Below, piece after piece: positions 3,432 to 21,667 of a stretch of DNA of 64,000 bases (the stretch's first letter is position 1; each line of letters starts with the position of its first letter). The DNA is from Nocardioides psychrotolerans. GTDB lineage: Bacteria; Actinomycetota; Actinomycetes; Propionibacteriales; Nocardioidaceae. The DNA lies in the NCBI RefSeq assembly GCF_900113685.1, contig NZ_FOQG01000013.1:62001-126000 (forward strand). Reading direction: 5' to 3'. Below the pieces are notes generated by a model that saw nothing but the letters and a program-made list of their open reading frames with translations, searched no databases and was not told where the DNA came from. The translations under genes and the position numbers were made by a program.

Positions 3432-4215
3432 GCACCCGGTCCCGGTCGCCGGCCCGGTCGACCAACCGGGCTGCCCAACGTTGCGCGAGGTCGGCGTGGA
3501 GGTCGTCGAGCGCCGCACGCGCTTGGTCACGGGCCTGCTCGTCGAGCTCGTGGTCGGAGAAGCGCGCCTCCCGGTAGAGCGCGGCCAGCCGCGAGACCGA
3601 GTGCCGATCGGCCGCGACCAGGTCGAGCAGGCGCAGCGTGAACTCGGAGGACGTCTCGTGCGGCAGCCGGGCCACGCCGACCCCGGCTGCTTGGGACTCG
3701 AAGCGGTGCCAGCACGCGACGATCGCATGGCGAGGCGTGCCCTCGGCGAGCGTGCCGCGTTGGTCGCTGGCGTCCTCGAGGATCGCCTGGGCCACGGCCG
3801 GGGAGTGCTGCGGCAGGGTGTCGAAGTCGACCTCGGGCGGTGTCCCCTGGCGAGGGTTGCGCCGAACCCCGGCCACTCGTCGTACGACGGCGACGACACG
3901 ACGACCGACGTAGAGCACGACCAGCAGGGCCAGCGCCCCGGACAGCACCGTGGCCAGGGGCTGGACCCACCCCGAGGACTCACGCTCCTGCGAGCGCCGC
4001 GGCTGCGGGTCAGGCACGGCGCGCGGACCCGTGGCGGTGTTCGCGTCGGTGTTGCGGCTCAGGGAGACATCCGCGCTGCCCTGGTCGTCGGCCACGTCGT
4101 CCGGCCCGATCGAGGCCGCCCAGGTGCCGAGCACCAGCAGCAGCCCTGTCACCGCCAGCACCCCCAGGACGGCCAGGGCGGACGAACCGCTCCGAGGCTG
4201 TCGAGCGTCTGCCAT
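3427..4215 (-). CDS. DUF4129 domain-containing membrane protein
   Basis: A 262-residue protein with membrane helices at about residues 12-33 and 85-105 and a C-terminal DUF4129 region (about 165-235) rich in conserved Glu/Leu/Arg, as seen next to MoxR and transglutaminase-like genes. It is the first gene of the leftward MoxR-DUF58-ATL operon. ATG 4215 is preferred over the GTG at 4239 because a -10-like TACGTT lies 7 nt upstream, which would give a leaderless mRNA starting at this codon. No transglutaminase (DUF3488) gene is present in this copy of the operon. Confidence 0.85.
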   Translation of the reverse strand: MADARQPRSGSSALAVLGVLAVTGLLLVLGTWAASIGPDDVADDQGSADVSLSRNTDANTATGPRAVPDPQPRRSQERESSGWVQPLATVLSGALALLVVLYVGRRVVAVVRRVAGVRRNPRQGTPPEVDFDTLPQHSPAVAQAILEDASDQRGTLAEGTPRHAIVACWHRFESQAAGVGVARLPHETSSEFTLRLLDLVAADRHSVSRLAALYREARFSDHELDEQARDQARAALDDLHADLAQRWAARLVDRAGDRDRVR

Positions 4216-4319: not shown

Positions 4320-5213
4320 TCAGAGGATCGGGGCGAACGGCTCCGTGCCCAGGGCCAGCTTGAGGCCGGCGATGGTGCCGTGGGCCTGGGCGTAGGCGAG
4401 CTCGCTGCGCAGGTCGCCGACCCCGTTGGCGCCCACGAGCGGCGCAAGCTGCACGGTCGACAGGGTGCCGAGCGCCTTGCCCTCGGCGTCGATGAAGGCC
4501 GAGCCCGAGTCTCCCGGGATGCCGGGGGTCACCGTGTAGACGGGGTGGTTCCAGCCGTCGCTGTCAGTGCCGAGGCTGACGCCCTGCTTGGGCGAGAGCT
4601 GCTCGAGGCCACCCCGGAGGCTGGAGTTGCCGAACGAGTAGACGGTGTCACCGGCCGGCGCACCGGCGGCGTTGACGCCCACGGGGCCACCCCAGAAGGG
4701 GATGCTCGGGTTGACCTTGGCGACATCGGCCGCGTCGACCCTGACCAGCGCGAAGTCGTTGAAGGCACACGTGTTGGCGTCGGTCTCGTTGCGGCCCTGC
4801 ATGGTCAGCCACGAGGAGTAGACGAGCGTGCCCGCGCCGACCTGCTCGCCGGAGGACGCCAGGCTTCCGCCTCGGTTGAAGGTGACGCGGGTGCCGAGCG
4901 GGAGGGACCCGGAGTCGCAGCCGTCGGTCTCGGTCGCCGTGCCGGTGCCGGCGCAGTGGGCGGCCTGGCCGAGGTAGACGTTGCCCGCAACGTCGGTGAA
5001 GACGAAGTTGGCGGTGCACTGACCACCGGAGGTGTAGGTCTGCACACCGGGCGTGATCGCAGCGGTGGCGGCGGGGGCCCACGCGGCAACGCGGATCGGC
5101 TTCTTGGCGGCCTCGGCGCCAGGGGCGCCGGCCAGGGTGACGGCCAGGGCGGCGCTGGAGAACGCGGCGGCAAGACCTGCGAGGCGGCGCGTGGACTTCG
5201 TTGCAACGAGCAT
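4320..5213 (-). CDS. Secreted trypsin-like serine protease
   Basis: A 297-residue protein with a signal peptide (about 1-36, ending A-E-A) and a chymotrypsin-fold catalytic domain. The catalytic triad is visible: His86 in A-A-H-C, Asp153 in N-D-F-A-L-V-R-V-D and Ser236 in G-D-S-G-S. Cys66 and Cys87 are placed to form the usual disulfide near the active-site histidine. An AGGAGG ribosome site lies about 10 nt before ATG 5213. It is monocistronic, framed by hairpins on both sides. The substrate is unknown; it is most likely an extracellular housekeeping or degradative protease. Confidence 0.9.
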   Translation of the reverse strand: MLVATKSTRRLAGLAAAFSSAALAVTLAGAPGAEAAKKPIRVAAWAPAATAAITPGVQTYTSGGQCTANFVFTDVAGNVYLGQAAHCAGTGTATETDGCDSGSLPLGTRVTFNRGGSLASSGEQVGAGTLVYSSWLTMQGRNETDANTCAFNDFALVRVDAADVAKVNPSIPFWGGPVGVNAAGAPAGDTVYSFGNSSLRGGLEQLSPKQGVSLGTDSDGWNHPVYTVTPGIPGDSGSAFIDAEGKALGTLSTVQLAPLVGANGVGDLRSELAYAQAHGTIAGLKLALGTEPFAPIL

Positions 5214-18787: not shown

Positions 18788-19951
18788 GTGGAACTGCGTG
18801 CGTCGCGGCTCGCCGTCGCGGCCGCCTTCCTCAGCCAGGGGCTGGTGTTCATCAGCCTGACCACACGGCTGCCGGACTACCAGGACCGCTGGGAGATCTC
18901 CGAGCTCACCCTGTCGCTGCTCCTGTTGATGATGGTGCTGCTCGCGGGCGTCGGCTCGGTGGTGGCCGAGGCGCTCGCCAAGCAACGCGAGAGCGCCTGG
19001 CTGCTGCGGCTCGGGCTGGCGCTCACCGTGATCGCGGTCCCCGTGCTCACGACCGCCCCGACGATGGAGGTCTTCGTCGGTGGGCTGGCCGTCTACGGGG
19101 TCGCGCTCGGTGTCGTCGACGCCACCACCAACATGCAGGCCGTCGCGGTCGAGCACGCCTACGGCCGCCCGATCCTGCCGTCCTTCCACGGCGCCTGGAC
19201 GCTCGGCGGCATCGTCGGCGCGGCTCTGACGCTCGCCACCTCCACGCTGCCGCTCGAAGTCGCGGCAGGGGTCGCCGCCGTGCCGCTCGCGGTGCTGGTG
19301 CTGCCGTTCCTCCCGCGGGCCGTCAGCGTCCTGCCGGCTGTGCCCTCCGACGTACCGTGGCGACCGCTGCTGCTGGTGGGCCTCGCGATGGTCGTGTTCT
19401 ACATGGTCGACACCGCCGCCCAGACCTGGGGCGCGGTCTACCTCGACACCACCGTCTCCACCCCCGACGGCCTCGTCGCGCTCGCGACCCTGCCCTACCT
19501 CGTCGCGAGCCTCGCGCTGAGGCTCGGGGGCGACGTCCTGGTCCGCGGCCACGGCGCCGTGCGGGTCATCCGGGTCGGCGCGCTGGTGTCCTGCGGCGCG
19601 CTGGTCATCATCGTGCTGGCGCCGTCGTGGCCGGTCGCCGTGCTCGGCTTCACCCTGCTCGGCGCCGGGGTCGCGGTCATCGCACCGCTGTCGTTCTCGG
19701 CCGCCGCCCGCATCGCCGGCGAGGGCGTCGACGAGGCGTCACGGCAGGCCCGGGTGGACGCCGTGATCGGCCGCTTCAACCAATTCAACTACGCCGGCGC
19801 CCTGCTCGGCGCGGTCCTCACCGGGGCCGTCGGCCGCGACGACCTGCGGCTCGGCTTCGCGATCCCGATGGTGCTCGTCCTCGCCCTGCTGCCCCTCGCC
19901 CGGGCGTTCGCGCCGGCGGCCGGGGAGCCGGTCGAGCCGCAGCCTGCATGA
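18788..19951 (+). CDS. Major facilitator superfamily transporter
   Basis: A 387-residue protein with about 11-12 membrane helices and short loops, typical of compact MFS permeases. The first helix begins near residue 8, and an S-F-H-G-A-W-T-L-G-G motif near 137-146 resembles that of fucose/glucose-type MFS proteins. Substrate is not predictable. GTG 18788 begins the first helix; the frame upstream is antisense to the channel gene. Its TGA stop is immediately followed by the left inverted repeat of the DUF559 cassette. Confidence 0.88.
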   Translation: MELRASRLAVAAAFLSQGLVFISLTTRLPDYQDRWEISELTLSLLLLMMVLLAGVGSVVAEALAKQRESAWLLRLGLALTVIAVPVLTTAPTMEVFVGGLAVYGVALGVVDATTNMQAVAVEHAYGRPILPSFHGAWTLGGIVGAALTLATSTLPLEVAAGVAAVPLAVLVLPFLPRAVSVLPAVPSDVPWRPLLLVGLAMVVFYMVDTAAQTWGAVYLDTTVSTPDGLVALATLPYLVASLALRLGGDVLVRGHGAVRVIRVGALVSCGALVIIVLAPSWPVAVLGFTLLGAGVAVIAPLSFSAAARIAGEGVDEASRQARVDAVIGRFNQFNYAGALLGAVLTGAVGRDDLRLGFAIPMVLVLALLPLARAFAPAAGEPVEPQPA

Positions 19952-20007
19952 GTCCCCGGTCAACCGGGGACGTTGGCGCTTGTCCGCCAAAGCAACCGGG
20001 CAGTTCG
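19944..20007. repeat. Left inverted repeat of DUF559 cassette (double hairpin)
   Basis: Contains an 8-bp stem hairpin (19952-19959 with 19964-19971, loop TCAA) and a 6-bp stem hairpin (19973-19978 with 19985-19990), then ccgggcagttcg. It starts at the last codons of the MFS gene and may serve as that gene's terminator. Confidence 0.9.
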
Positions 20008-20122
20008 TGTGCTCGGCGACTTGCTCGAGCGTGACCTGTCGTTCGCTCGCGCCGAACTGCCGACATTCGCGCGCTTGTGGATGAGCTCAGCGAGCGCCGA
20101 CCTGATCGGTCCAAGGTGAGCC

Positions 20123-21028
20123 ATGGAGACGACGTCAGAAGTCATGGACCCCGGGGCCGCCCTCGAGTCGCTGGGTGGCATCGCCGGCATCGGCGAGTGG
20201 CGCCGCCTGACCGGTCGAGCGGCTGCACGTGATGCGCTGGAGGACGGGCGAGTCCTGCGGATCAGGGGCCGGCAGGTGGGTCTGCCGGGGCAGGCAGCAA
20301 CCCGCGTCCTGGCGGCTGAGCTGGGCGGGACGACCTCGCACCTGAGTGCGGCTCAGCACCACGGTTGGAAGGTCAAGACGGCCCCTCCACTGCCCACGCT
20401 CACCGCCCCGCGCAGCTCGCGCGCTCCGGCGGCGACCACGAAGGTCGAGCTGCACTGGGCGGACCTGGTCCCGTCGTCGGTCGCGGACGGCGTGACCACC
20501 CCCGTGCAGACCGTCGTCGACTGCAGCCGTGCCTACGAGTTCGACGTCGCCCTGTGCGTCGCCGACTCGGCCCTGCGCTCCGGCCTGTTCACGAAGGACG
20601 AGCTGCTCGAGGCGGCGGCCCGGTCACCGCGCACCGGACGGTCGCGCGCACTACGGGTCGCCCGGGCCGCGTCAGCGCTGGCCGACAACCCCTTCGAGTC
20701 CGTCCTGCGCGCGATCGCGCTGAGCGTGCCCGGGCTCGACGTACGCCCTCAGGGGTGGATCGGCAACGCCGGTCGGTCAGACCTGGTCGATGACCGGTTG
20801 CTGATCGCGATCGAGGCCGACTCGTGGGAGCACCATGGCCACGTTGATGCGTTCAAGCGCGACGTACGCCGCTACTCCGAGTTCGCTCGCCGGGGCTGGG
20901 TCGTCCTCCGATTCCTCTGGGAGGACGTCATGTATCACCCCGAGCAGGTCCGTCGCGTGCTGCTCGAGACGACGCAGGTTCGAACGCGTCAGCTGGTCGC
21001 GGCAACGTCGGCAGTTCGCGTCTCATGA
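20123..21028 (+). CDS. DUF559 (Vsr-like endonuclease-fold) protein with AbiEi-like N-terminal domain
   Basis: A 301-residue protein. Residues 9-60 resemble the winged-helix AbiEi antitoxin domain. The C-terminal DUF559 region (about 190-280) shows a PD-(D/E)xK-like set: Glu192 in N-P-F-E-S, Asp220 in R-S-D-L-V-D, Glu231 and Asp233 in I-E-A-D, and Lys245. Such proteins are annotated as endonuclease-domain or type IV toxin-antitoxin AbiEi-like proteins and occur in many copies in Nocardioides-type genomes. ATG 20123 follows AAGG; ATG at codon 8 is an alternative. It sits alone between inverted repeats. Confidence 0.85.
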   Translation: METTSEVMDPGAALESLGGIAGIGEWRRLTGRAAARDALEDGRVLRIRGRQVGLPGQAATRVLAAELGGTTSHLSAAQHHGWKVKTAPPLPTLTAPRSSRAPAATTKVELHWADLVPSSVADGVTTPVQTVVDCSRAYEFDVALCVADSALRSGLFTKDELLEAAARSPRTGRSRALRVARAASALADNPFESVLRAIALSVPGLDVRPQGWIGNAGRSDLVDDRLLIAIEADSWEHHGHVDAFKRDVRRYSEFARRGWVVLRFLWEDVMYHPEQVRRVLLETTQVRTRQLVAATSAVRVS

Positions 21029-21063
21029 GCGCTCCACCCCGCTGGGCGCGGCCATCCGCCGGC

Positions 21064-21127
21064 CGAACTGCCCGGCGGGATTGGCGGACAAGCGCCAAGG
21101 TCCCCGGACATCCGGGGACCCATGCAG
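21064..21127. repeat. Right inverted repeat of DUF559 cassette (double hairpin)
   Basis: Mirror of 19944-20007. The two stems are identical in sequence to the left arm, while the loops differ (ACAT on the plus strand here). It begins next to the stop of the MaoC gene and may terminate it. Confidence 0.9.
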
Positions 21128-21667
21128 TCAGTCGGCCGCAGGCCCCGGCCAGTTCTTGTCGGGCTGGGGCAGAGGGCGGCCGGGCTGCTCGCCACCGCGT
21201 GCGGTGAGGTAGCTGTCCTTGGGCACCATCACCTTGCGGCGGAAGATGCACACGACCTTGCCGTCCTGGTTGTAGCCGATGGTCTCGACGTGGACGACGC
21301 CCCGGTCGTCCTTGGACTTCGACTCCCACTTGTCCAGCACGGTGGTCTCGCCGTAGAGCGTGTCGCCGTGGAAGGTCGGCGCGACGTGGCGCAGCGACTC
21401 GACCTCGAGGTTGGCGATTGCCTTGCCGGAGATGTCGGGGACCGACATGCCGAGCAGGATCGAGTAGACGTAGTTGCCGACCACGACGTTCTTGCCGAAC
21501 TGGGTGGTCTCCTCGGCGTAGTTGCTGTCGAGGTGCAGCGGGTGGTGGTTCATGGTGAGCAGGCAGAACATGTGGTCGTCGAACTCGGTGACCGTCTTGC
21601 CGGGCCAGTGCTGGTAGGTCGCACCGACCTCGAACTCCTCATAGCTACGACCGAACTGCAACGTCAT
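21128..21667 (-). CDS. MaoC-family dehydratase (hot-dog fold)
   Basis: A 179-residue hot-dog-fold acyl-CoA hydratase-like protein. The active-site stretch F-D-D-H-M-F with H-H-P-L-H-L-D at about residues 41-48 and V-V-V-G-N-Y after it matches MaoC enzymes, which hydrate enoyl-CoA substrates. ATG 21667 has AGGAG about 5 nt upstream. An acyl-CoA dehydrogenase gene lies 3 kb away on the same strand, so a shared acyl-CoA pathway is possible but not shown. Confidence 0.9.
   Translation of the reverse strand: MTLQFGRSYEEFEVGATYQHWPGKTVTEFDDHMFCLLTMNHHPLHLDSNYAEETTQFGKNVVVGNYVYSILLGMSVPDISGKAIANLEVESLRHVAPTFHGDTLYGETTVLDKWESKSKDDRGVVHVETIGYNQDGKVVCIFRRKVMVPKDSYLTARGGEQPGRPLPQPDKNWPGPAAD

Follow-up and report, generated by a model that had tools for sequence, protein, structure and literature searches.

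Our analysis shows that, in the 64-kb stretch of Nocardioides psychrotolerans DNA studied here (the window), a gene for a Vsr-type nuclease with an AbiEi-like head lies between two oppositely oriented copies of a palindromic element that is dispersed through the same genome, and that related nuclease genes are recurrently paired with palindromes of the same design. The catalytic part of the protein belongs to DUF559, a common nuclease domain of unknown function. We consider it probable that this locus represents a family of mobile, REP-like palindromes in its nuclease-bearing form, resembling a REPtron in which a Vsr-type nuclease replaces the HUH transposase. The unit would then comprise one palindromic element, the AbiEi-headed nuclease gene and a second palindromic element, and the solo elements would be its non-autonomous ends, spreading without the gene.

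The cassette and its two palindromic elements

The cassette occupies the space between the stop codons of two convergent genes, and the coordinates bear out the original prediction that it fills this gap exactly. On the left, an MFS-type transporter gene (18792-19951, + strand, start approximate; delimited by its reading frame and by tblastn to relatives) has its stop codon at 19949-19951, overlapping the left element, while on the right a MaoC-like dehydratase gene that is highly conserved in the genus (21128-21667, - strand; reading frame and relatives) ends at 21128. The nuclease gene (20123-21028, + strand) is the only gene between the two elements in the window, and its end falls inside the right element. 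The 64-nucleotide arms on which the prediction was based (19944-20007 and 21064-21127) agree at 54 of 64 positions when one is inverted, the best other 64-mer of the window reaching 35/64; each arm folds into two hairpins, and the stems of both hairpins have the same sequence in the left and right arm. The inner inverted pair that had also been proposed (about 20054-20064 and 21007-21017) exists as well, though not as a feature of its own: it forms the far end of a 63-bp core. Combined with GGCAGTTCG, which closes each arm on its inner side, it yields 63-bp imperfect palindromes at 19999-20061 and 21010-21072. The true units are two complete elements of about 123 bp, the arms being their first halves.

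The left element (19945-20067, + strand; G000:C24:81945-82067) consists of TGCATG, hairpin 1, hairpin 2, the 63-bp palindromic core and GACATT, as defined by a 13-copy alignment, and matches our covariance model of the element (R1, see below) with 117.9 bits; the right element (21004-21126, - strand; G000:C24:83004-83126) is an inverted copy and scores 117.1 bits. The left core (+ strand) reads GGCAGTTCG ... GAGCGTGA at the centre ... CGAACTGCC, as identified by a pattern match and by a profile of 59 cores from the genus. The central box of the right core (- strand) has diverged, and this core contains the stop codon of the nuclease gene.

Domains of the nuclease and the motif upstream of its gene

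The gene encodes a protein of 301 amino acids, with a likely start codon at 20144 (MDP...), that matches the Pfam families MTES_1575 (2e-8) and DUF559 (8.7e-5) and is predicted by AlphaFold with a mean pLDDT of 91.4. It can be divided into a winged-helix head (about residues 4-57), an AbiEi-like middle domain (58-184) and a Vsr/I-Bth0305I-like DUF559/MTES_1575 nuclease domain (187-289). In structure comparisons, the nuclease domain resembled 3hrl (Z 13.3), the catalytic domain of I-Bth0305I, a homing endonuclease (Z 13.2 over 96 residues), and, with a lower score, Vsr (Z 11.0). For residues 58-184 the counterpart was AbiEi (6y8q, Z 11.3), and residues 4-57 gave weak winged-helix matches. Five residues of the nuclease domain (E192, D220, E231, H238 and D247) are invariant in 59/59 homologues, and fold comparison together with these homologues places E, D, H and D residues in a Vsr-like catalytic fold. 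By analogy with EDxHD enzymes, E192, D220, H238 and D247 are putative active-site residues.

Between the left element and the gene lies TGTGGATGA (20076-20084, + strand), which we take to resemble the actinobacterial DnaA box (TTGTCCACA, reversed). The sequence TGTGGA is found upstream of 71 of 79 related genes, compared with 21 of 563 random windows, and in almost all lineages (L125-L204) the stretch that separates the nuclease gene from the palindrome upstream of it contains a motif of the form CCTGTGGA(T/C/G)(A/G)(A/G). This DnaA-box-like motif may couple expression or movement to replication.

The element is dispersed in the source genome and its core recurs in the genus

The arms were also sought beyond this locus, where they are indeed present. 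A search of the source genome with the second hairpin gave nine sites, two of them at the cassette locus, and the aligned copies form an element of fixed length: TGCATG, hairpin 1, hairpin 2, GGCAGTTCG, 45 bases, CGAACTGCC and GAC(A/G)TT. The R1 model, built from 13 element copies, was searched over the source genome and recovered 16 full copies of 93-127 bits; the next match falls to 52 bits, and matches of about 52 bits or less were left out of the family count. According to a GC3-based gene call, all 16 full copies are intergenic, although some run a few bases into the end of a gene, and 0/14 solo copies lie between divergent genes. The orientation of the central box relative to the double hairpin varies among the solos of this genome (L013-L021, L022-L037), which gives the impression that certain copies have undergone an inversion of the 63-bp core.

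The core is a 63-bp imperfect palindrome of the form GGCAGTTCG-N45-CGAACTGCC, and the box exactly at its centre is conserved. Of 147 genomes sampled from the genus, 31 contain this core, and a reversed-pattern control found almost none. Its length is identical in 59 of 69 profiled cores, and the column profile of these 59 has CTGAGCGTGG or a near variant at the exact centre. The arms between the boxes are variable, and in the same profile their left-right pairing did not exceed chance; a conserved RNA fold is therefore unsupported and recognition as DNA is the preferred explanation. Judged by its sequence, the core resembles an array of DNA boxes for protein binding and not an RNA fold. No Rfam family was found above threshold, and the order and spacing of the boxes, by inspection, do not fit an integron attC-like or CRISPR-like reading. 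The outer stems depend on the species: there are two hairpins here, and other species have GCACCATGCA/TGCATGGTGC or CAACGTA/TACGTTG. What is conserved most widely across species is the 63-bp core and its central box, a structure that the original prediction did not include; the double hairpin is a species-specific addition. Since the arms between the boxes diverge among copies, most copies of the element must be old. Two genomes (G034 and G013) gave many weak model matches of other lengths (56 and 38, respectively), which suggests that other palindrome families are abundant there.

Nuclease lineages tend to be paired with their own palindromes

The pairing of nuclease gene and palindrome recurs well beyond the window. 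Two cores about 1 kb apart flank homologues of the nuclease gene at a different locus in G012 and G017, and the closest Nocardioides homologues are mostly flanked by the same core, at several loci; among the 30 best nuclease loci of the genus, 19 have a core beside both gene ends and 6 more at one end. Counted by genome, 19 have both the core and a close nuclease and 111 have neither (Fisher p about 1e-11), while 12 have the core without a close nuclease, which fits a later loss of the nuclease. G067 and G117 carry eight and seven cores, respectively, and no close intact nuclease; G067 retains a 154-aa nuclease fragment (C23:14255-14716, 56% identity), as expected for elements orphaned by loss of the gene. 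The other two DUF559 genes of the source genome lack a GGCAGTTCG-type element, and a link of the element to every DUF559 gene of this genome was accordingly rejected.

More distant homologues, in Nocardioides, Terrabacter, Phycicoccus and Ornithinimicrobium, are accompanied by palindromes of the same design with different, lineage-specific ends. In a de novo test, paired palindromes with the same ends were found at 38 of 80 named loci (from these four genera and others, in at least 54 neighbourhoods), compared with 4/316 random anchors and 1/117 neighbouring genes; at about half of the 80 loci, paired palindromes were absent by the criteria used. The similarity of the palindrome ends tracks that of the proteins (Mantel rho 0.27, 0/999 permutations), and for the three palindrome types examined the solos lie in genomes that hold the corresponding nuclease lineage. 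The CGGACCGA type has three solos in N. glacieisoli and the CAGGCAGA type has one in Phycicoccus sp. HDW14, each the genome of the matching nuclease, and no CAGGCAGA type was found in 11 other genomes; one CGGACCGA-type match goes against the pattern, as the nuclease of the Ornithinimicrobium genome in which it lies belongs to a different end type. Each nuclease lineage thus tends to have its own type of flanking palindrome.

The association tests contradict the proposal that the arms serve only as bidirectional terminators for the two neighbouring genes and came to enclose the nuclease by coincidence. The hairpins fold well, the elements lie downstream of genes and relatives show other hairpins at the MFS-MaoC junction, all of which would be expected of terminators, but coincidence would have to account for the recurrent pairing (38/80 loci against 1/117 control genes), for the exact 63-bp geometry with its central box and for an identity between the arms that reaches far past the stems, and we regard it as extremely improbable.

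Movement of REP repeats is attributed to RAYT enzymes (PMC8266576, PMC3733652); a RAYT was rejected as the mover of the present elements, no Y1_Tnp/RAYT gene (PF01797) being found in 13 element-bearing genomes. The palindromes could instead be moved in trans by an unrelated recombinase, with the nuclease merely carried along, for example as an islet for defence or with a toxin-antitoxin function. An AbiEi-like domain is a typical feature of antitoxins that act in abortive infection, and the catalytic step of the nuclease is putative, both compatible with a passenger, but the type of palindrome tracks the nuclease lineage, close nuclease and core co-occur, the 13 genomes are free of RAYT genes and the cassette contains no partner toxin or defence gene. 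A mere passenger is therefore very unlikely, and the defence islet suggested earlier finds a counterpart only in an AbiEi profile, the sole match to an anti-phage system, which is weak (7.2e-6). The association of nuclease and palindrome is a direct observation, from which we infer that the nuclease itself is the mover.

Presence and absence at orthologous sites

An empty-site screen (tblastx with identity cut-offs) identified 11 genomes in which the MFS-MaoC junction has no cassette, whereas N. lijunqiniae has the cassette at this same junction, with its arms; the relative that has the gene here has thus kept the arms. Both N. lijunqiniae arms carry another hairpin, TTTCGCCGGTCGACCGGCGAAA, the outer hairpins having been replaced alike (3833-3852 and 4957-4976 of locus L125, compared with 19952-19971 and 21100-21119 of the window), and the two arms of the cassette therefore appear to evolve in concert. 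At one empty MFS-MaoC site (L219, genome G100), two copies of TTCACCGGGTGCCCGGTGAA flank another inverted repeat. Two further comparisons delimit the insert at other loci. Between L131 and L135 it stops on the right exactly where the right element ends, and on the left it reaches some 30 bases outside the left element. Between L172 and L146, an empty site with no element, its left limit, at the left element, is immediately past the stop codon, and its right limit is at the right element. Inheritance of the cassettes is mostly vertical, and transposition must therefore be rare.

The clearest case of a solo is an 81-bp element, ACCAGGAAGGCAGTTCG...CGAACTGCCTTCCTGGTGT, that is exactly present in one and absent from the other of two genomes that are 93-95% identical (G110 and G030). 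Across 13 species, this junction holds the element in six, is empty in six and has an unrelated palindrome in G012; the empty site of G017 looks like an ordinary deletion. At a site next to a tRNA-Arg gene, two elements are present in G110 and in G017, compared with one in G030. At the G012 junction that is orthologous to L251 (L290), an unrelated palindrome, GGATAGTCCGCTGCGATCG...CGATCGCAGCGGACTACC, is present where relatives hold the GGCAGTTCG element, which suggests that several palindrome families use common insertion spots. From sequence comparison, gain and loss cannot be told apart for certain in these presence/absence differences. The segments gained or lost end at or near the palindrome ends. 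No target-site duplication was seen at the exact 81-bp site of G110 and G030, one of few close pairs compared, and no strand polarity, cleavage site or target sequence was found for the elements. The idea that the cassette targets intergenic terminators is upheld to the extent that insertions sit just downstream of stop codons, but not in the sense of a defined target sequence.

The structural match to I-Bth0305I (Z 13.2), one of the two best of the catalytic domain, raises the question of a homing-type gene drive, in which the nuclease would cut solo palindromes and repair of the break would copy the cassette in, with the palindromes as homology. Two copies of the putative target do enclose the cassette, but none of the empty sites read (L135, L146 and several MFS-MaoC genomes) contains a solo element of the cassette's type, solos stay intact alongside the nuclease, and homing of the gene would leave the gain and loss of the solo elements themselves unexplained. 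We judge such a drive distinctly unlikely.

A domesticated DNA-binding nuclease could alternatively serve the host in replication, repair or nucleoid organisation by acting at the palindromes, the solos then being maintained functional sites and not selfish copies. A core of fixed length with a conserved central box and varying arms is what a protein-binding site would look like, a DnaA-box-like motif precedes 71/79 genes, and related DUF559 proteins can be Vsr-like repair nucleases (PMC12907096). On the other hand, the core is found in only 31/147 genomes, elements are gained or lost between sister genomes, the end sequences vary freely among lineages and a host role has no need of two elements around the gene. 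This explanation is unlikely, although less so than the other alternatives.

The view that we favour, a REP-like element carrying its own nuclease, was among the suggestions of the original prediction and is well supported by the dispersed solos, the recurrent pairing with one nuclease clade and the empty sites. Against it weigh the loci that lack paired palindromes, the cores without a close nuclease, the stray CGGACCGA-type match, the rarity of transposition and the age of most copies. In its simplest form, the winged-helix/AbiEi head would recognise the palindrome of its lineage by binding the ends or the central box, and the Vsr-type domain would start the movement with a nick or cut in the element, which may then be extruded as a hairpin. 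The element would then be copied or moved to intergenic spots just past stop codons, sometimes carrying the gene along.

Comparison with known systems

In REPtrons (REP-RAYT/TnpA-REP, relatives of IS200/IS605), copies of short palindromic, mostly intergenic repeats flank a dedicated enzyme gene, and the type of repeat co-evolves with the enzyme (PMC8266576, PMC3733652). Dispersed palindromes that flank an enzyme gene, with solos elsewhere, are likewise present here, and by analogy the anatomy of the system would work like that of a REPtron. However, an AbiEi-headed Vsr-type nuclease takes the place of the HUH/Y1 tyrosine transposase, the element comprises at least a 63-bp core, in which the central box is conserved, and its consensus contains no conserved tag corresponding to the GTAG (or CGTC) tetranucleotide at the end of REP repeats. 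TIRtrons, in which long terminal inverted repeats flank a RAYT-like gene and can form repeat families (PMC3733652), differ from our cassette in their enzyme and in that each flank is here a complete palindrome in itself. MITEs of insertion sequences are also small, palindromic-ended and gained or lost at orthologous sites, but the cassette has no DDE transposase partner and no visible target duplication, and it is the internal arms that diverge here while the ends and centre are conserved.

The protein has its own set of relatives. It shares the fold of its catalytic domain with Vsr-like (EDxHD) homing endonucleases such as I-Bth0305I, but its gene lies outside any intron or intein and does not interrupt its own recognition site, the empty sites read being without the element and the flanking elements intact. 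The AbiEi antitoxins of the type IV toxin-antitoxin system AbiE have a similar winged-helix head and middle domain; here, this part is fused to a nuclease, and no AbiEii nucleotidyltransferase toxin partner is present in the cassette.

We found no published link of DUF559/Vsr-type genes to dispersed palindromes, mobile genetic elements or transposons in the literature searched, which left out most subscription journals; MTES_1575 has been named as a Vsr-type domain in a large fusion protein, in a different context (PMC3710099). A bolder generalisation, which we put forward tentatively as somewhat less likely to be right than wrong, is that actinobacterial DUF559/Vsr-type nucleases are a large unrecognised class of mobile DNA, in which each lineage would recognise its own palindrome of about 60-120 bp, move it as a solo into intergenic sites without target duplication and travel between two copies, with no relation of the mechanism to recombination of the HUH, DDE, serine or tyrosine kind. 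Nucleases that are compact and have long sites specific to their lineage may also be of interest to builders of DNA tools. If the nuclease does move or maintain the palindromes, it would represent a new enzyme class for DNA mobility and a second, independent invention of the strategy of combining REP repeats with an enzyme, which would account for the recurrence of these genes among actinobacteria.
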